From positions 1 to 64,000 of the IMG/VR virus record IMGVR_UViG_3300044691_000371: 64,000 bases of DNA, one strand, 5' to 3'. The position numbers were made by a program, and so were the translations under genes. This stretch comes from a virus. Shown piece after piece: positions 3,119 through 34,364 of this stretch (the first letter of the stretch is position 1; each line of letters begins with the position of its first letter). The notes beneath the pieces are model-generated. The model did no database searches. It was given only the letters and a program-made list of their open reading frames with translations, and had not been told where the DNA came from.

Positions 3119-3913
3119 TTACGAAGTTACAGGATTGAAGACTACCCCTGTCAGTACAGCAGGGTCGTAATTAAAATAACCGCTTCCGAGTGCTACAAAA
3201 TCAGAAAAAGGAACGCTATCTAATGTTGTTCCATCTATAAAAAAGCTTCTCATTCCAGGCACGTTGGTTTGCATGTACTGTTCTAAATCTGTTACGTAAA
3301 ATTCCCCGTTCAATGCAAAAGTATTTTGAAACGTTGTCAAAGCGTTTAATACATTGCTTTGTAAAGTTGGTAAATCGAAACTTGAAAGATAAGTTGCTGT
3401 TGATGTGAAAAATAAAACGTTTCCCGGTACTGAAATTATATTTAATGGCAAATCAAGTATTTCAAAGTTCAACATGTAAGCCTGAAAAGCTGTCAATTGT
3501 GGTGCTGTCAAAGGCGCTAAACCTCCGCTTATTCCGGTCGTTGCAACTTTCAAAAAGAATCCTGATTGTTGAAATGCTGCCTGTGAAATTATCTGTTTTG
3601 TCGTGTCAATAACTGGGTAAATCAAGTTTAAATATGGTGCGCCTGTTACTGGATTTATTGCTTCGTTTATAACTAAGTTATCACCATACTGAAAAGCAAG
3701 TGCAACCCCTGTATAATAAAGTGCTTTTCCGTATCCTTGCTGTGAAATTAAAAGGTTTGTAATTATGCTTTCTGAATTGGCTATTTCGGCAATAACGTTA
3801 TCTAAAACCTGACCAATGGCAATGGCAATTTGTTCATCAATAGCGGTAACGCTTAGATTGGTGAACCCAAGTGCGGCCAAATTATTGTTGATTTGTTGTA
3901 TCGATGAAGCCAT
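3119..3913 (-). CDS. Baseplate J-like protein
   Basis: The protein has 264 residues. Its order resembles baseplate J family wedge proteins: a helical N-terminus, a segment around residues 130-175 with paired hydrophobic strands, and a C-terminal block (LQSNVLNALTTFQNTFALNG, then a YVTDLEQYM segment and a short domain). The gene follows the 126-residue gene with TAATG overlap at 3913, as the J gene usually follows gp25/W-like genes. The resemblance is by pattern only, so the family call is moderate. Confidence 0.5.
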   Translation of the reverse strand: MASSIQQINNNLAALGFTNLSVTAIDEQIAIAIGQVLDNVIAEIANSESIITNLLISQQGYGKALYYTGVALAFQYGDNLVINEAINPVTGAPYLNLIYPVIDTTKQIISQAAFQQSGFFLKVATTGISGGLAPLTAPQLTAFQAYMLNFEILDLPLNIISVPGNVLFFTSTATYLSSFDLPTLQSNVLNALTTFQNTFALNGEFYVTDLEQYMQTNVPGMRSFFIDGTTLDSVPFSDFVALGSGYFNYDPAVLTGVVFNPVTS

Positions 3914-25321: not shown

Positions 25322-25687
25322 TCACAGAACAATAACCCCTACTCTGTACTTTGAAATATTTTCGGTTGCAAAGGCATTAGTTACCTCTCCGTTTAATGTG
25401 CTGACTACATAGCCGTCTCTAATATAGTTCCTGTAAACGTCTGTTTGCTTTTTGGGGTCTTTCCAGTACGACCAACACTCTTGAGGATGCATAATAGTAT
25501 CCGGTATTTTTTCGAAGTCTTTGAGGTTGTTTCGTACAGCGTGGAAACTTTTTGAGGTAAATTTTACGTTTGTTAGAAGTTTAGCACATTGAAATATTAT
25601 CGTGCCTTTTATGTCGCTGTGGTATTGGTGTTGCCAAATATGGTACTCTTCGATGAAGTGGTGAAGTTTGTTTTTATTTACGCTCAT
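25322..25687 (-). CDS. Hypothetical protein
   Basis: The 121-residue protein begins MSVNKNKLHHFIEEYHIWQH. It contains MHPQECWSYWKDPKKQTDVYR and a C-terminal hydrophobic strand. Separated from the MuF frame by an inserted HNH gene. Function unknown. Confidence 0.55.
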   Translation of the reverse strand: MSVNKNKLHHFIEEYHIWQHQYHSDIKGTIIFQCAKLLTNVKFTSKSFHAVRNNLKDFEKIPDTIMHPQECWSYWKDPKKQTDVYRNYIRDGYVVSTLNGEVTNAFATENISKYRVGVIVL

Positions 25688-26244
25688 GGTTTAATTATGT
25701 TTAATTTAGCAAACTCTTTATATAGTTTTAAAGCTTCTTTATTATATGCCAATGCAGCCTCTTTTTCGGTTTTGAAATATCCTATATGTTTGCCTAAAAT
25801 TGATGATTCCCATGTAGGATATTCCTTAGTTATAACAGTTCCATCTTTTAATATCCATTTTGTTTTTTTCTTATTTAAGTGAACTCCTTTATATTCAGAT
25901 GTTGTGTTTTTATTTGCATTTCTATTCCGATTATTTTCGCTCTTTGTTGCTGCTCTTAAATTTTCAATTCGGTCATTTAATGGATTTCTATCAATATGAT
26001 CTACAAACTCTGGCATGTATCCGTGATGATAAAGGAAAATCAATCGAGAAGTTAAATATCTTTTCCCATATATACTAACTCTGTATCTTTTAGCATTGTA
26101 ATAAACACATATACATCCAAGTCTTTTGCCTATTTTAACATATGGATTTATTTTTTTCTTCCAATATAAATATCCGTCTTTATATTCAGTATATTTAAGT
26201 AATACTTGTTGTGTTAATTGAGGTTTTTCTTTTAAATTTGTCAT
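25684..26244 (-). CDS. HNH homing endonuclease with AP2 domain (paralog)
   Basis: The 186-residue protein has the same length and order as the gene at 7213-7773. HNH core at about 72-104 (FLYHHGYMPEFVDHIDRN, then LNDRIENLRAAT), AP2 domain at about 115-184 (YKGVH, IGYFKTEKEAALAYNKEAL). Protein and 5' leader are both alike, so the two are copies of one mobile cassette. It lies between the MuF frame and a hypothetical gene. Confidence 0.85.
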   Translation of the reverse strand: MTNLKEKPQLTQQVLLKYTEYKDGYLYWKKKINPYVKIGKRLGCICVYYNAKRYRVSIYGKRYLTSRLIFLYHHGYMPEFVDHIDRNPLNDRIENLRAATKSENNRNRNANKNTTSEYKGVHLNKKKTKWILKDGTVITKEYPTWESSILGKHIGYFKTEKEAALAYNKEALKLYKEFAKLNIIKP

Positions 26245-26309: not shown

Positions 26310-27161
26310 TTAATCTATATTAAAAATATCTCCATTCGCTTCATTTGCACTCGATAAAGCCTGAAAATAGCTATGCCCTTGACGTGGTAAAATTCCCTGA
26401 TTTGCACTATTAAACCTGAATTGAGGGTCTACATGCTCTAATGATACTTTTGCTTCTTCGTTTGTTAAAACAGATTTCCCATTGTCTTCAAGGTACTGAT
26501 CGTCCACTTGTTCGCTTCCGCAATCGCAATTAAATCCATTTTTTGGGTGACAATCGTCCCCTTCTGGATCTCCTATTCGATAGATATTACCAACCAATTC
26601 AAGGTGTTCGATTCTCGGATTTGCTGAATTTGTTTCTAAATATATCCAATAAGGGTATAACTCTTTATTTTCACGATATGATATAAATTGTTGACCTGTT
26701 ATTGCTAATCCTATAGCCGTATCGTATTCTATACGAAGCCATGTTTCTTGAAATATATTTACTACTTCTTTACAATCTCTTTTATATTGGCTAAACCCCT
26801 TACGAACGCCGTCTTCATTGAACAACAATTCTTTCATCATTTTATTTTCAGCAACGCTCTTACTCGCTGAAAATTGGGTTGAGTTCAATAAATAACGCTC
26901 ATATAATGAGGTATCACGAAATAAGTCGAAATCTGATTTGATTTTAGTTTCGTCTTTCAGAATATCGAAAAAGGTATTTGCATATTCTTTGAAAGTAGGC
27001 AGGTATATCCCTGTGCCTCCATCAAATACGAATTTGGCTTCGTCATCTGATTTTTCTGAAAGCCTGTCAATTGTATGATCTATTTTGGCCTTTTGTTTCT
27101 TGGTCGGTTTCCTCGGTTTAGAATCAAGGTTGACGTATTCACTACCTAAAAAAATCAGTTT
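26310..27161 (-). CDS. Mu F-like head morphogenesis protein, read by -1 frameshift from the portal
   Basis: A 283-codon frame extends from the A9 run at the end of the portal gene to 26310. The C-terminal part has the Mu F/SPP1 gp7 pattern: NPRIEHLELVGNIYRIGDPE, then HPKNGFNCDCGSEQV (Cys/His cluster). There is no ATG, GTG or TTG in the first 270 bases; the first is a TTG at 26888, well inside the domain. The 5' part also reads as good protein (GGTGIYLPTFKEYANTFFD). So it is best read as a C-terminal extension of the portal, giving a fusion of about 759 residues. An ancestral fusion broken by an indel is the alternative. Confidence 0.7.
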   Translation of the reverse strand, partial: KLIFLGSEYVNLDSKPRKPTKKQKAKIDHTIDRLSEKSDDEAKFVFDGGTGIYLPTFKEYANTFFDILKDETKIKSDFDLFRDTSLYERYLLNSTQFSASKSVAENKMMKELLFNEDGVRKGFSQYKRDCKEVVNIFQETWLRIEYDTAIGLAITGQQFISYRENKELYPYWIYLETNSANPRIEHLELVGNIYRIGDPEGDDCHPKNGFNCDCGSEQVDDQYLEDNGKSVLTNEEAKVSLEHVDPQFRFNSANQGILPRQGHSYFQALSSANEANGDIFNID

Positions 27162-28588
27162 TTTTTTAAAGCCATCTGAAAAGTAGCATCCGGCTTTACC
27201 AATTTATCCTGCGTTGGTTGTGGCATTGGCTCAAAGAAATCGGGCATCATTCCGTTCTGCTCAAAAAACCCTGGAGTTAACCTGTAACCGTTAGCGTTAA
27301 GGGTCGCCCCCATTACTTGAATGTCAGCTATGGTTAACTGTTTTGGCCTGTAAGCAAACCACCATTTATCTGGATTAGGAATGTTTTTATAGAACTTTGC
27401 TATTTTTATTTTAAAGCCTTTTATGTTGTTTAAAGTCGCTAATATGTAAGGCATTAATTCGGCAACCCTATCATCCAGTGTACGTTCTTCGACCTCTCCT
27501 AAAGCTCTATTACCACCTTTACCGCTTGATTGAGTTAATGAACGACCGAAAACCATTTCCTGAATTTCGCCCTTTTGTTCTTGATTAAACTCTTGATAAA
27601 TTTTATGTAAACTTCCTGTCGCGCCTGTCTTTTCAAATTCTAATTCGATTGACTTTTGCATTTGCCCATCATTATCTAAAGTATATGGGTAAACTAATCC
27701 CTCTTTTGGATTAAGGTTTGAAGCTAATGCAACTGCATCATTTTTGTAATTATTCTTTGGTTGACCGTTTGCATCTAAACTTCCGTCATCTTGTGGGTAA
27801 CCGATTGTAAGGAATGGGAACGCTGTTCTCCGGCCTGCTGCAATCCAGTTGTTATTATTTTCGTTCATTTCCACATAGCTATAGGCTATAGCTTGCATCC
27901 ACCCTAAAAAGTCTTCGTAATTATCAGATGGTTGAACGAATAAAAGATTGTCGTTTTCTTCAAACAATGCCCCGTCATAAAAACTGAATGTATTGGCTTT
28001 TAACATCCTATTTATCGGGTCAATCTGCTGCATTGGGTATTTGTAGCATTCTTCATTCACTGGGTCAAAGTTCAAACCGCTGAATCCCCAGAAGTACGAA
28101 TAAAGAATTTCGCGCCTCATTTTTATTTGCCACTGCTTGCTGCAAAGTTCTTCTGAAAGGTCTGGTATTTCTTCTCCGTTTTCATCAACAATGTAGAATG
28201 GTACCCTGTCCATGGCTGCACCAAGCTTTAGAAACAACGATCTTACAAATGGTGACTTCTCATATACCCAACTTGTTAAAGTCGCGTATAATTGAGTATA
28301 ACCCATTTTAACGGCTTGGTCAGATGCTTCTCTCACGCGGGTTGTATCCCAAGCCACATAATATTGACTTGGGTAGACCCATGACCCTACATTTTGACCG
28401 CTTTGTTTTGGAATAAAGAAAGGGTTTACTATTGGCGAACCGCTTGCTGTTCGTGTTCCAGGCTGTACAGTACCAAAGCCACCCCCACCGGGTGCTTTAC
28501 CTGTTACACCAACGCCTGTAGTATTTCCAAATGGCCCGCTGAATGGCCCCTGATTTGCTAATTTTGATGGTCTTCCCCTCTTTGCCAT
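27155..28588 (-). CDS. Portal protein
   Basis: The 477-residue protein begins MAKRGRPSKLANQGPFSGPF and carries the DUF935/Mu gp29-type portal layout: a Trp-rich N-domain, YSYFWGFSGLNFDPV in the middle, and FGRSLTQSSGKGGNRALGEVEERTLDDRV, the conserved portal crown segment, near residues 345-375. It forms the dodecameric ring through which DNA passes. It lies downstream of the terminase and connector, as usual. The final codons are GCT TTA AAA AAA AAC TGA, a slippery A run (see the MuF entry). Confidence 0.8.
   Translation of the reverse strand: MAKRGRPSKLANQGPFSGPFGNTTGVGVTGKAPGGGGFGTVQPGTRTASGSPIVNPFFIPKQSGQNVGSWVYPSQYYVAWDTTRVREASDQAVKMGYTQLYATLTSWVYEKSPFVRSLFLKLGAAMDRVPFYIVDENGEEIPDLSEELCSKQWQIKMRREILYSYFWGFSGLNFDPVNEECYKYPMQQIDPINRMLKANTFSFYDGALFEENDNLLFVQPSDNYEDFLGWMQAIAYSYVEMNENNNNWIAAGRRTAFPFLTIGYPQDDGSLDANGQPKNNYKNDAVALASNLNPKEGLVYPYTLDNDGQMQKSIELEFEKTGATGSLHKIYQEFNQEQKGEIQEMVFGRSLTQSSGKGGNRALGEVEERTLDDRVAELMPYILATLNNIKGFKIKIAKFYKNIPNPDKWWFAYRPKQLTIADIQVMGATLNANGYRLTPGFFEQNGMMPDFFEPMPQPTQDKLVKPDATFQMALKKN
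27159..27167 (-). promoter_or_regulatory. Candidate -1 frameshift site (A AAA AAA in an A9 run)
   Basis: Nine As in portal phase TTA AAA AAA AAC end two codons before the portal TGA. A -1 slip enters the MuF frame. In that frame a TAA lies about 40 bases upstream, so the shift must occur close to this run. Confidence 0.6.
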
Positions 28589-29760: not shown

Positions 29761-30381
29761 TTATTTTATTTCTTTTGCTTCTTCAACCGCTAATTTAACA
29801 ATTTCACGGCTTTCAAATTCATTAATACCCATTAACATTTCATATATAGCAATTTTTATTTTGACATTATATCCTTTCGCTATCTCTAAAAATAATAATA
29901 AATGAACAAATGTGCTTTTTTGTCCTAAAGTATTTGAAATAACTTCACCGTATTTTTTCTTTAACTCATCAATAAAACATAAATTTTCACTTGTGTTTAA
30001 AGCTATAGGTATCGATGTTTTAAAATTTGAATTGACTTCATTCAAAAGTTTATTTATTGCATTTAACTCTATAAAATAATTTGATTTTATAACTTCAAAT
30101 GTTTTTCCTAATATTTTAAATTTATATGTCAAATTGTTTATTCCTATTGAATAATCAGCTATTAATTTCAAATCATTTTCAGTTAATATAAACCATTCGC
30201 CTGCAATATGAGATTTAAAAAAGCAATTATGAAGTATAGCTTCGCAATCCTTATCAATAATTAATAAAATTTTACAATCACCTTTAATTTGATCTATTTG
30301 TAAAAGTCTTTTATATGGATTTTTTGAACGCCCAATTTTAATTAATCCAGTTCTGTTGTTTTTAATTATGTATGTTTTCAT
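29761..30381 (-). CDS. T5orf172/GIY-YIG-like endonuclease
   Basis: The 206-residue protein has an N-terminal T5orf172 (Mug113) domain, a GIY-YIG relative, at residues 1-75: YIIKNNRTGLIKIGRSKNPYKRLLQI, then CFFKSHIAGEWFIL. The helical C-terminus may bind DNA. It is inserted between terminase and connector genes and closes with its own terminator, consistent with a mobile endonuclease. The gene at 59612-60277 has the same domain at its C-terminus. Confidence 0.7.
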   Translation of the reverse strand: MKTYIIKNNRTGLIKIGRSKNPYKRLLQIDQIKGDCKILLIIDKDCEAILHNCFFKSHIAGEWFILTENDLKLIADYSIGINNLTYKFKILGKTFEVIKSNYFIELNAINKLLNEVNSNFKTSIPIALNTSENLCFIDELKKKYGEVISNTLGQKSTFVHLLLFLEIAKGYNVKIKIAIYEMLMGINEFESREIVKLAVEEAKEIK

Positions 30382-30398: not shown

Positions 30399-32840
30399 CT
30401 ATCCAAGTTTTGGTTTTACTCTTTGGGTTTTAGTTGTGCCTCCTGCTTGCGGTAATCCACGTCTGCGTTGTAGAAATTGCGTATATTCATCTTTCAATGC
30501 TGTTGTGATAAAGTAGCGGCTACAGTTATGTACTAAAATTCCATTTGCAAAAAATTCGTGTTCATCTTCAATTTCCAAATCGTAAACGTTTTTTACATTC
30601 TTTTGAGCATGTTTTTGTTGGGGCGTATTTATACACTGTAAATTCATTGTTGCAAATTGCGCATATTCTTTGTGTGTTTTCAAGTCCCAATTTCCGCCTG
30701 TATGCTGATTTGCAATTGTTAGAGCAAAAACGTTGTTCGATTGTTTTTTTTGTAAATTCCTTATTGCATACTTCGCAATTATATTGTCCATATGTAAGAT
30801 GTCCAAACCCGATATTTTTTGCATGTTGTTTACACCTTTCCCTCTCTGCTTCACTTCGTTCTCGTTTAGCTGCTGCTGGAATTGCTTTTTCGAGAAGATT
30901 TTTAAGCATTTTTGCTTTTTGTTCATCAGTCCATTCTTTACTATGGTCTGACATGTGCTGGCTTTTGGTTTTAAGCTCAAAATTGCTTGTTTCGTTATTT
31001 TCAGGATTGTGATCAATGTGGTGAACAACGTACCCTTTAGGTATTTCCCCGACTTCGCATTCGTATTTATAAACATGTAATCTTGTTTTTCTCCAATTTC
31101 CTTTACTGATTTTAACCCATCCTGAATAATATGGTTGGTCTCTTTTAGTTCCTGTGTACTTAATAAATCTAAATCCGTTATAGGTGATAATTTCTTTTCG
31201 CATACTAAATTATTTTCATCTAAAATACAAAAAGTACCGCAAACAATCAAATATATTTCTATAAAATCTTTTTCCTTAGTGTAAAATTTATGTTCTGGTG
31301 TGCATGTTACTTTAACATCACCTATTTGATATTCTTTAACCTGTCTATATCCATTATTCCAAACATTTAAAACTTTTTTATATCCATTTCTTGTCAAAAC
31401 ATTTTCACCTATTTTAATTTCATCAATTCTTTTATTTCCATTATCGGTCATTATAAAAGTTTCCCCGACAAAACAAGATAACATATGTCCGTACTTCTCA
31501 TAAGTTATACCTGTTTGTTTATCGGTTACTTTTTTAATAATGATTCCACCGTCTACATCTTCCGGCACCATTAAATAATCTTCAATCGATTTGTAACAAG
31601 TTTTATTTATAAAAATCTTCCATCCTAAATATTGCGTTTCTAAAATTTCGTTTATAAATGCCCCGCTTTGCGTTATACTTGGTGCTGACTTTCCAACTCT
31701 ATCAACAACTTTAAATCCTGCATTTTCTAAAACTCCTATGAATTTATCAAAAAATGATCTTCCATTATCATCTGTTGTTGATCTTGCGTTTGCAGATGGA
31801 TCGCCAAATACATTTATAATATCGTTATAATCTTCACGATCTAAATATTTAACTAATTCCATTGCTGCTTTTGCTGCTGTATTGTTTGGTGCAATACATG
31901 GTAATTCACCAATTTGTAATAATGCTTTCCCAACTTTATCAATCATCCAAAGTTGAACTGATACGTATGGGCTAACGTTATTGTCACAACTTACACAATA
32001 AGTAAATCCACGCTGTTTTAGCCCCGGTATTAAGTTAAAATCTATTGTGTGAAGGTTTGTATCAAAACATTTATAAAACGGATTTCCAGGCTTTCTAAAC
32101 CCCCAATTCCCAAGCGTAAACACATTGTAGTAATATGCGTTATTTTTTGATGTTCGATAACTCTCATATAATGCAATACGTTCGTCACTACAGTAAGGAT
32201 TATCTTTATACGTGCCATGGGTTGATCTTACCTTAAATTCTATTTTCCCTTTTGGTGTATCAATTTCGCGTACCCATTTAAAGTTTTTTTCTTCTGTATG
32301 TGAAAACCAATCCTGCCATAGCCAAAAATCAGTATAAGTAACGTCACATTCAGGATTAAAACTAAAATATGTTTTTACTTTTCCTTCGTTTGAACGCAAA
32401 GAGGTTAATATTACTATAAAATCATCCGCTGTTATCTGATTTGCTTCTTCTAACCATGCCCATGATGGATTCGCAAATGATTTTATTTTCTGAACGTCAT
32501 CTAATCCCCTGCCATAAAACGCCCCGCCATTGATACATTTAATTTCTAATGGTGAAGTTGTGAATTTAAAAAATTGTTGCAATCCCCAATTTTCAACTAC
32601 AATTTTAATCATCCCAACCATTGATTCAGAAACTGTATTATAGGTTTTCCTTATTAATAGCCCGCGAAATTTAGGATTAGACATACATTCGATTATGCCC
32701 ATTTGTGCTATCTGTCTCGTTTTGCCATTATCCCTGCCTCCCCAGAGGAAGTCAATATCAAAAACTTCTGGGTCATCGATTAAATGGTGGTAACATGGAA
32801 GGAACTTATCGCGACTGACTGTTATGTTTATTTCTGACAT
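30399..32840 (-). CDS. Terminase large subunit containing an intein
   Basis: The 813-residue precursor has a terminase ATPase (Walker A GGRDNGKT at 34-41; WLEEANQ Walker B region near 130) and an RNase H-like nuclease (NVFGDPSANARS near residue 345). An intein of 317 residues (456-772) interrupts the conserved HMLS-CSRYF segment near the nuclease end; removal would give about 496 residues, normal for the family. Splice residues are Cys1, terminal HN and Cys+1. It packages DNA with the portal encoded below. An HNH gene is nested in another frame of the intein. Confidence 0.85.
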   Translation of the reverse strand: MSEINITVSRDKFLPCYHHLIDDPEVFDIDFLWGGRDNGKTRQIAQMGIIECMSNPKFRGLLIRKTYNTVSESMVGMIKIVVENWGLQQFFKFTTSPLEIKCINGGAFYGRGLDDVQKIKSFANPSWAWLEEANQITADDFIVILTSLRSNEGKVKTYFSFNPECDVTYTDFWLWQDWFSHTEEKNFKWVREIDTPKGKIEFKVRSTHGTYKDNPYCSDERIALYESYRTSKNNAYYYNVFTLGNWGFRKPGNPFYKCFDTNLHTIDFNLIPGLKQRGFTYCVSCDNNVSPYVSVQLWMIDKVGKALLQIGELPCIAPNNTAAKAAMELVKYLDREDYNDIINVFGDPSANARSTTDDNGRSFFDKFIGVLENAGFKVVDRVGKSAPSITQSGAFINEILETQYLGWKIFINKTCYKSIEDYLMVPEDVDGGIIIKKVTDKQTGITYEKYGHMLSCFVGETFIMTDNGNKRIDEIKIGENVLTRNGYKKVLNVWNNGYRQVKEYQIGDVKVTCTPEHKFYTKEKDFIEIYLIVCGTFCILDENNLVCEKKLSPITDLDLLSTQELKETNHIIQDGLKSVKEIGEKQDYMFINTNAKSGKYLKGTLFTTLITILKITKQAILSLKPKASTCQTIVKNGLMNKKQKCLKIFSKKQFQQQLNENEVKQRGKGVNNMQKISGLDILHMDNIIAKYAIRNLQKKQSNNVFALTIANQHTGGNWDLKTHKEYAQFATMNLQCINTPQQKHAQKNVKNVYDLEIEDEHEFFANGILVHNCSRYFITTALKDEYTQFLQRRRGLPQAGGTTKTQRVKPKLG
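30525..31475 (-). other. Intein in the terminase, with block A, B, F and G motifs
   Basis: The element runs from Cys1 at 31475 to Asn317 at 30525. Block A is CFVGETFIMTDNG, block B is VKVTCTPEHKFYT, block F is VYDLEIEDEHEFFANG, and block G is ILVHN followed by Cys. All needed splicing residues are present. The in-frame middle (residues 91-290) has no LAGLIDADG or HNH motif and reads as low-quality protein, because the real endonuclease lies in the other frame (30568-31203). Confidence 0.85.
30568..31203 (-). CDS. HNH homing endonuclease nested out of frame inside the intein
   Basis: The 211-residue protein has an HNH core at about 50-90 (GYVVHHIDHNPENN, then NFELKTKSQHMSDH). Two C-terminal zinc-finger modules follow (CEVCNKEF...FCSNNC and CAICNNEF...TCSKEC). 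It starts at an ATG 272 bases into the intein and ends overlapping block F codons, all in a frame different from the intein. About 200 codons are therefore open in both frames. The clean HNH and four CxxC pairs show that this frame is selected. It probably mobilises the intein DNA. Confidence 0.8.
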   Translation of the reverse strand: MRKEIITYNGFRFIKYTGTKRDQPYYSGWVKISKGNWRKTRLHVYKYECEVGEIPKGYVVHHIDHNPENNETSNFELKTKSQHMSDHSKEWTDEQKAKMLKNLLEKAIPAAAKRERSEAERERCKQHAKNIGFGHLTYGQYNCEVCNKEFTKKTIEQRFCSNNCKSAYRRKLGLENTQRICAICNNEFTVYKYAPTKTCSKECKKRLRFGN

Positions 32841-32912: not shown

Positions 32913-34364
32913 TTAGAACGTTACCGCCTTTATTTCGTTGATTAACGCTTGTTTGTCGGTCTCTAACATCGCCATGGTTTGGAATATTTTGTCGCTGAAA
33001 CCGGCTAAACAAAATACTTTACTTTCAGGAAATTGCATTGTGCCTAATCCAGCAAGATCAAACGAATATATGAATGGATTTGCGCCAAATTTTTTATTGT
33101 ACTCTGATAATGGCACTTTAGGTGAATAGTAACCAATCCATCCTTGCATATCGCTAAAGATTAAAACACGTTCATATTTTTTATTAGCGTTTTTAAATAT
33201 GGAATGAAAGTTCGTTCCGTGTCCAACTTTGTTTTGACGTGTAAAATTAGCTGCGAAATCCATTGAATGTTGCGATAACTGATAATGAATGTAACGTGCA
33301 AAGTCTCCAAATTCCATTATATCAGCATTAATTGCCTTTGCTAAAACTATCCCAAACAAAGCCCCTAATTCCGATTTTTTCATGTGCTTTGAGTTTGAAA
33401 CTAAGCTATCCATCGACCCGGAATTGTCAACTGCAACTAATGTATTGCCGTCAAAGTTCAGCGTTTTAATGTTATTACAGCTTATATCGACCGCCTCACT
33501 TAATGCCTGTGTTATTTGACGTGCTTCTTTAGTGCCCAATGCTGAAAACTGTTTGTAAGCTATCAAATATTGAAACGGAAATATCAGCGACTTTTTAATG
33601 AACGATTCGCTTGTCAATGATGCCAATGCCTCTGTTAAAACTTCCGGTGCTTGTGTCATGATGTTTGACAGGTTACGAAGCAAAGCCAAATAACCTATTT
33701 TCTTTTCACGTACAAGGTTAATCCAAACTTCTTTTTTGGCGTTCTCAACATTATCACTTTGCCCCGCTGCTGTTAAACCTGATTCCCACGTATCAACTGA
33801 TTTCAGCGTACCGTTTACTAATGCCTTAATTGCTTCGGCGTTTTTTTCAACTGGTGTAGGGTGAACGATATTAACAACGTCAACAAGTTTTATTGCGTTC
33901 TTTTCGCCGCGGTATTTTGCCAGCTGGTATCCATCAAACTTTTCAAACGCCAATGCAAAGCCGCCTTTCATAGCGTTGGTTACTTTCCCGTTGTTGGCTT
34001 TGTGGTACGACAAAATTTCTGTCATATCATCCGGCCTGTAAATAACTGCATTGTAAAAAGCCTTTGCCCAATCATAGCCGCCGACCTGTATAGCTAATTC
34101 AGATGCAGCAACGTGGCTGATCGAACGCATACCGTATTTTGTACGTGCGTAAACGGCGGCTTGTGCAACGAATTTAGGATTGCATTGAGTAATTAAAGTT
34201 TTCAATCTCGTTAATGTATCGTTTGATTTTTCGTAAAATCCATCGCTTACAAATGAAGTAAGCAATATTGATACTAACTCTAATTCGGCAGATTGCTTGT
34301 GTGATTGCCCACCTGCTTTGTTTTCTACAAGTGCTGTAGATTCTGTTTTTGTGTTAAACTTCAT
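32913..34364 (-). CDS. Ro60/TROVE RNA-binding ring protein (Rsr-like)
   Basis: The 483-residue protein has a TROVE module over about residues 15-300 (helical HEAT-like repeats, e.g. CNPKFVAQAAVYARTKYGMR, LRNLSNIMTQAPEVL). A von Willebrand A domain follows over about 303-480, with a full MIDAS: VDNSGSMDS, GHGTNFHS and FSDMQGW. Length and order match bacterial Ro60 (Rsr), a ring that binds Y RNAs and misfolded RNA ends and works with exonucleases in RNA quality control. The four RNA units immediately upstream are its likely partners. Terminators on both sides make it a separate unit. Confidence 0.9.
   Translation of the reverse strand: MKFNTKTESTALVENKAGGQSHKQSAELELVSILLTSFVSDGFYEKSNDTLTRLKTLITQCNPKFVAQAAVYARTKYGMRSISHVAASELAIQVGGYDWAKAFYNAVIYRPDDMTEILSYHKANNGKVTNAMKGGFALAFEKFDGYQLAKYRGEKNAIKLVDVVNIVHPTPVEKNAEAIKALVNGTLKSVDTWESGLTAAGQSDNVENAKKEVWINLVREKKIGYLALLRNLSNIMTQAPEVLTEALASLTSESFIKKSLIFPFQYLIAYKQFSALGTKEARQITQALSEAVDISCNNIKTLNFDGNTLVAVDNSGSMDSLVSNSKHMKKSELGALFGIVLAKAINADIMEFGDFARYIHYQLSQHSMDFAANFTRQNKVGHGTNFHSIFKNANKKYERVLIFSDMQGWIGYYSPKVPLSEYNKKFGANPFIYSFDLAGLGTMQFPESKVFCLAGFSDKIFQTMAMLETDKQALINEIKAVTF

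Follow-up and report, generated by a model that had tools for sequence, protein, structure and literature searches.

How could a phage obtain a fusion of two proteins whose genes lie in different reading frames? The question is raised by a locus in a window of 64,000 bases of viral DNA (positions 1 to 64,000 of the IMG/VR virus record IMGVR_UViG_3300044691_000371, which is 84,826 bases long), where the portal gene ends at a run of nine adenines (A9) and a region encoding a MuF domain is open in the −1 frame from that point. A portal ring is unique and twelve-fold, and it is normally regarded as uniform in composition. We propose, with a probability of roughly 0.87 as judged from sequence comparisons, that a programmed slip at the 3′ end of the portal gene leads to two products, the portal protein and a minority portal-MuF fusion. 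The architecture is deeply conserved, the startless part of the MuF region is under selection, and sister phages have a second class of slippery sequence at the same joint. A preliminary description of the locus had suggested a minority fusion produced by a −1 shift at the A run, and this suggestion is supported by the presence of the run in 23 of 23 lineages and of the −1 relation in 22 of them.

The portal gene end and the −1 frame

The zero-frame product (positions 27155..28588, minus strand) is a Mu gp29-like portal protein of 477 amino acids that matched the Portal_Mu profile (PF06074) above threshold (E value of 1.7e-14; 54.3 bits versus a gathering score of 23.9). Its reading ends in TTA AAA AAA AAC TGA, as previously described. 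The A9 slippery run (27159..27167, minus strand) lies 0.3 codon upstream of the zero-frame UGA stop (27155..27157, minus strand), which stands immediately past the slip site and is followed by a second in-frame stop (TTT TTT TAG). Two heptamers are present at the run, A AAA AAA at 27167-27161 and A AAA AAC at 27164-27158. This run is the sole A or T homopolymer of at least nine in the 64 kb; dinucleotide shuffles of the window give an expectation of about 18 such runs (12.7 T runs and 5.4 A runs).

The MuF-encoding open region (26313..27203, minus strand) is in the −1 frame relative to the portal and extends for 297 codons from stop to stop, with 282 sense codons past the run. The earlier assignment of a Mu F-like domain to this open frame was confirmed by a match to the Phage_Mu_F profile (PF04233) above the cutoff (E value of 5.8e-7; 30.7 bits versus 29.6), and relatives scored up to 59.5 bits. 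The −1 frame stop upstream ends 36 bases before A9 and so confines the slip to the region of the run, as the preliminary description had argued. It had also pointed out that ATG, GTG and TTG are absent from the first 270 bases, and this is correct: the first such codon is TTG 26888 (270 bases on) and the first ATG is at 26840. After the predicted slip, the MuF frame reads KKKLIFLGSEYVNL..., and the predicted fusion would comprise about 759 amino acids. An Rfam scan of the window returned no match.

Conservation of the A run among relatives

A search with the single MuF protein yielded no confirmed relatives, and alignment queries were required. Lineages were defined at a cut of 90% portal identity, which gave 23 from IMG/VR with pairwise identities of 35 to 82% (median, 48%); in nine related lineages, portal identity was 41 to 70%. 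Portal alignments searched against 84,980 bacterial and archaeal genomes found no relatives. The first relative (L002; portal 69% identical) has A11 and another (L009) has A10, both with MuF in the −1 frame; just past the run, the window differs from these two by 3 nucleotides, and the frame offset is the same.

Whether homologs keep the slippery run was a check set beforehand. A run of A9 to A12 was present at the portal end in all 23 lineages (A10 in 17 of them) and ended no more than five codons from the portal stop in any, and 22 of the lineages have MuF in the −1 frame. The preliminary description had named a run length that places portal and MuF in one frame as evidence to the contrary, and such a run is absent from the window's clade. 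Run length centers on ten across lineages while the codon phase of the run varies, and A10 was found in 7 of 7 contigs of one cluster (L033). The portal bodies of the A-run lineages (32,517 nucleotides) contain no A run of nine or more, and of the A or T runs of at least nine in 285 kb of these loci, 23 lie at junctions and 7 outside them. Every A-run lineage has an in-phase A AAA AAN (X XXY YYZ before the stop). The run's first two lysines are encoded by AAA throughout, AAA making up 68% of portal lysine codons (P of about 2e-8; this and the other probabilities quoted here treat the lineages as independent, although they are related). In L014 and L048, a slip upstream of the run is impossible because the −1 frame is closed right up to the run.

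The arrangement also occurs in cultured Winoviridae. The portal gene ends in CCT AAA AAA AAA AGT ... TAA in Winogradskyella phage Peternella_1 (A10) and in GTA AAA AAA AAT CCC AAC CCG TAG in Flavobacterium phage fF4 (A9), with MuF in the −1 frame in both. These genomes are annotated as having two genes with GTG starts, and the frame-slip arrangement is unannotated.

Translation of the startless MuF segment

The first in-frame MuF start lies 5 to 93 codons past the run, varying by lineage, and the startless segment spans 43 to 87 codons in the pairs compared. Over pooled pairs, the proportion of nonsynonymous differences (pN) in this segment was 0.28 versus a synonymous proportion (pS) of 0.78. 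The ratio of nonsynonymous to synonymous substitution rates (dN/dS) was 0.04 to 0.22 where dS was unsaturated, with values of 0.08 for the window and L002 and 0.04 for L042 and L046. Because purifying selection acts in the −1 frame, we judge that the startless part of MuF is translated. A GxEYxxL motif a few residues past the slip is invariant in ten aligned lineages. AlphaFold gave a moderate model for the window MuF (70) and a poor one for the portal (predicted local distance difference test score of 56); in the MuF model, predicted helix 87-113 would be interrupted if translation began at TTG 26888 or ATG 26840. A Foldseek search of the MuF model against the PDB gave no meaningful match. 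An internal start for MuF had likewise been named as evidence against the fusion, and none was found that accounts for the conserved startless segment.

Sister phages with a U UUU UUC site or a continuous fusion

The sequence T TTT TTC is found in phase at the portal-MuF joint of Elizabethkingia phage TCUEAP3, the Bacteroides Hankyphage p00 group, and three fecal phages, in the last of which it lies one codon upstream of the portal stop. The first MuF start in TCUEAP3 is 92 codons past the portal stop. A T precedes TTT TTC in nine of nine T-class lineages even though the preceding codon varies (CCT, TGT, CGT, AAT, GGT, AGT, GCT), and the chance of this invariant T, given two phenylalanines, is about 1e-15. 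The heptamer also looks selected because TTT makes up only about 5% of portal phenylalanine codons in a p00-like genome.

Other sister phages encode portal and MuF in a continuous open reading frame (ORF), namely, Porphyromonas phages (L006; 853 amino acids), L069, and L063. A slippery site is again in phase at the joint (T TTT TTC in L006, L075, and L069; A10 in L063), and a −1 slip at the joints of L006, L069, and L063 would reach a stop after 24, 30, or 5 codons, respectively, and yield the portal alone. The conserved property appears to be dual output, with a polarity that can flip freely.

In Bacteroides phage BS-TP1 (L068), MuF is in the −1 frame and a possible A AAT TTT was seen by eye near 3289; a scripted scan of this phage gave no A- or T-class slippery site. 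Its MuF is annotated from 3430, and the frame is open from 3289.

Proposed mechanism

In the proposed scheme, most products would end at the stop just past the A run and would be ordinary portal subunits. A minority would enter the MuF frame, either through RNA polymerase slippage on A9 to A12 that adds one A to the mRNA or through a ribosome that shifts back one base on A AAA AA(A/C/G). The fusion would then coassemble with plain portal subunits, and MuF, together with any cargo, would be brought into the head by only one or a few of the twelve subunits; a slip of about 8 to 17% would load one or two of them. We infer from the comparisons above that the fusion is made, as well as its ratio to the portal, its place in the capsid, and its role in setting copy number.

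Several observations weigh against a programmed slip of this kind. L031 (positions 1222-2550) and L032, which are identical in sequence and count as one lineage, have A10 but apparently lack one base past the run, and their MuF is in the +1 frame, which is unreachable by a −1 ribosomal slip. No conserved RNA structure was found downstream of the A run (mean z of −0.57, by simple local folding in which pseudoknots are not modeled), and a Shine-Dalgarno (SD)-like stimulator was present near the run in only 1 of 23 lineages; efficient ribosomal frameshifting in bacteria does not usually lack both. Most members of the Hankyphage p00 group also have an ATG or GTG at the portal stop that is a possible MuF start. 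Phages lotta8-2, FPSV-S1, D3112, and HS6 have clearly separate MuF genes with their own ATG and without a long run, showing that the fusion is not needed everywhere. The relatedness of the lineages also counts against the quoted probabilities.

Polymerase and ribosomal slippage at the A run are, in our judgment, nearly balanced, with a slight lean to the transcriptional route because a length of ten is kept while codon phase varies, because neither a conserved downstream structure nor an SD-like stimulator accompanies the run, and because the +1 MuF of L031 and L032 could be served by polymerase but not by a −1 ribosomal slip. Ribosomal slippage, to which we assign only slightly lower odds, fits the always-present in-phase A AAA AAN and the U UUU UUC of the sister class. 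Stimulators of −1 ribosomal frameshifting, such as downstream structure and internal SD sequences, are frequent but not universal. A −1 slip by the ribosome is likely for the U UUU UUC class, since T6 is short for polymerase slippage, and U UUU UUC has been proposed as the heptamer for the SPP1 tail chaperones (PMC6316719). As an A or T run lengthens, single-A insertions rise exponentially; the RNA:DNA hybrid spans 9 bp (PMC5574713). Bacterial transcriptional slippage is known on runs of nine (PMC5009743).

It is possible, although we hold this tentatively and at somewhat under an even chance, that the slip, by polymerase on A10 or by ribosomes on U UUU UUC, is a widespread and hitherto unannotated dosage switch of Bacteroidota phages which sets how many of the twelve portal subunits bear a MuF-RNase cargo for injection. 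Its polarity would be flipped in the phages with continuous fusions, where slipping would yield plain portal, and both products would be retained in either arrangement.

Alternative explanations

MuF could instead be a separate protein initiated at a non-AUG codon (CUG, AUU, AUA, or AUC) past the A run, the run belonging to an A-rich, Bacteroidota-type initiation region coupled to portal termination. The MuF-frame codon past the run is AUU, AUC, or AUA in many lineages, a CUG overlaps the portal UGA stop in the window, and Bacteroidota depend little on Shine-Dalgarno sites. However, other codons are found at that position in L014, L048, L016, and L025, and the U UUU UUC class has the same frame relation without an A run. 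Such a start would leave the run length and the in-phase heptamer unexplained, and portal and MuF form one continuous protein in sister phages; we consider it very unlikely. Somewhat less likely still is a free MuF protein made from a downstream ATG, GTG, or TTG (in the window, TTG 26888 or ATG 26840), with the run being incidental. Such codons do occur 77 to 93 codons on in about half of the lineages, and MuF genes elsewhere have their own starts, but the codons that precede them are conserved with pN far below pS, their position varies from 5 to 93 codons past the run across lineages, and initiation at such a codon would truncate helix 87-113, the first in the predicted MuF domain.

Phase variation, in which replication slippage of the A run toggles a population between fused and unfused genomes, is suggested by the variation of the run from 9 to 12 across lineages; tracts of A9 to A12 are typical contingency tracts. 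Against this, the fused frame was found in 0 of 23 lineages (a chance of 9e-5 with equal frames) and the −1 frame was found in 22 (5e-10), all seven contigs of the L033 cluster have A10, and replication would not slip often on a tract as short as the T6 of the sister class. We rate phase variation as improbable to the same degree as a downstream start. The least probable explanation is a sequencing or assembly error in the homopolymer or a broken gene. Homopolymers are error prone and the records are metagenomic, yet the same offset recurs in 22 lineages from many samples as well as in cultured phage genomes, and purifying selection acts on both sides of the joint. Compared with each of these, a programmed slip that yields both portal and fusion remains the reading we prefer.

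Relationship to known systems

The statement in the preliminary description that portal-MuF fusions exist in some phages is borne out by the literature: continuous fusions occur in Microbacterium clusters EA3, EA5, EA8, and EB (PMC7302621), and portal-MuF-PBECR fusions have been noted (PMC5512222). Their single polypeptide has both domains in the order predicted here, with PBECR added in some. They differ in having an unbroken DNA frame, whereas the window-type fusion needs a slip and would thus be made in the minority of cases; in Porphyromonas phages (L006), the continuous ORF retains the slippery heptamer at its joint.

Frameshifts in phage structural genes include those of the lambda G/GT tail chaperones and of the capsid or tail extensions of T3, A2, and PSA (PMC5009743). 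Like these, the predicted fusion would be a minority form of a structural or assembly protein, with a C-terminal extension gained through recoding close to a stop. It differs in that the literature searched describes no such case for the portal gene, the word "portal" being absent from the text of PMC5009743 consulted, and in that the A run lacks conserved downstream structure. Transcriptional slippage on A or T runs is known in bacteria from Thermus dnaX, Shigella spa13/mxiE, and insertion sequence elements (PMC5009743, PMC5574713). The likeness lies in an A or T run of at least nine, in a length that is kept rather than a codon phase, and in a nearby stop, whereas the gene and predicted product here are new. 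The continuous relatives share the polarity of dnaX, and the proposed flip of polarity resembles what is known for that gene (PMC5009743). The literature searched gave continuous fusions and no report of a portal-MuF fusion made by frameshifting, an absence that is not proof. Both portal-MuF fusions and phage structural frameshifts are known, and making the one by the other would appear to be a new combination.

In SPP1, the portal draws a few copies of gp7 into the procapsid interior (PMC6316719), with one to two per capsid (PMC5576092). MuF polymorphic toxins have variable C-terminal effector domains (PMC6316719, PMC5576092, PMC11699363), and delivery of these toxins to the host has been proposed. 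SPP1 gp7 is a free portal-binding protein, whereas in the present scheme MuF would be attached covalently, with slip efficiency setting its dose. If the proposal is true, portal rings would be mixed and the slip ratio would fix the amount of an effector that is internal and possibly injected, which gives a testable answer to the question of how low MuF copy number is set. It would also correct the annotation of Peternella_1, fF4, TCUEAP3, and likely the Hankyphage p00 group, where MuF N termini are missing or misplaced. Together, the phages would offer a natural comparison of polymerase-type and ribosome-type slippery sites, and of both polarities, that apparently serve one recoding function.

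MuF cargo and neighboring genes

The predicted portal-MuF fusion appears to end in a PBECR2 (PF18810) RNase-like domain in many relatives, with scores of 41.4 bits in L020, 37.1 in L042, and 28.5 in L055 (cutoff, 27.1). A GNAT-like domain is weakly matched at the MuF C terminus of L012. In the window, a separate ORF (25322..25687, minus strand) matched PBECR2 weakly and below the cutoff (E value of 0.01; 16.5 bits). It resembles the MuF C terminus of L002, and the counterpart domain is fused to MuF in L002, L020, L042, and others. Between MuF and this ORF lies a homing-endonuclease-like HNH_3 ORF (25684..26244, minus strand; PF13392, E value of 3.9e-15) that overlaps the ATG of the PBECR2-like ORF by 4 bases. 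L009 has no HNH_3 ORF there, and its separate PBECR2-like ORF directly follows MuF.

Intein-like inserts, placed at the conserved NC(x)C site, were seen in the MuF domain of L012 (6737-9436), L014 (6108-8477), L016 (3667-5667), and L046 (2685-4655). Hint and Intein_splicing matches were obtained in the inserts of L012 and L014, in a gene that would be reached only by the proposed frame slip. The terminase large subunit of the window (30399..32840, minus strand) also has an intein-like insert, at GHMLSC (Intein_splicing E value of 3e-5; Hint_2), inside which an HNH_3 ORF (30568..31203, minus strand; E value of 1e-12) lies in another frame, as if overprinted on the intein; the L002 terminase is without the insert. 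Downstream of the intein-bearing terminase is a GIY-YIG/T5orf172-like ORF (29761..30381, minus strand). A Ro60-like gene with TROVE and vWA domains (32913..34364, minus strand; TROVE E value of 1e-16) adjoins the terminase and is also present in L002.
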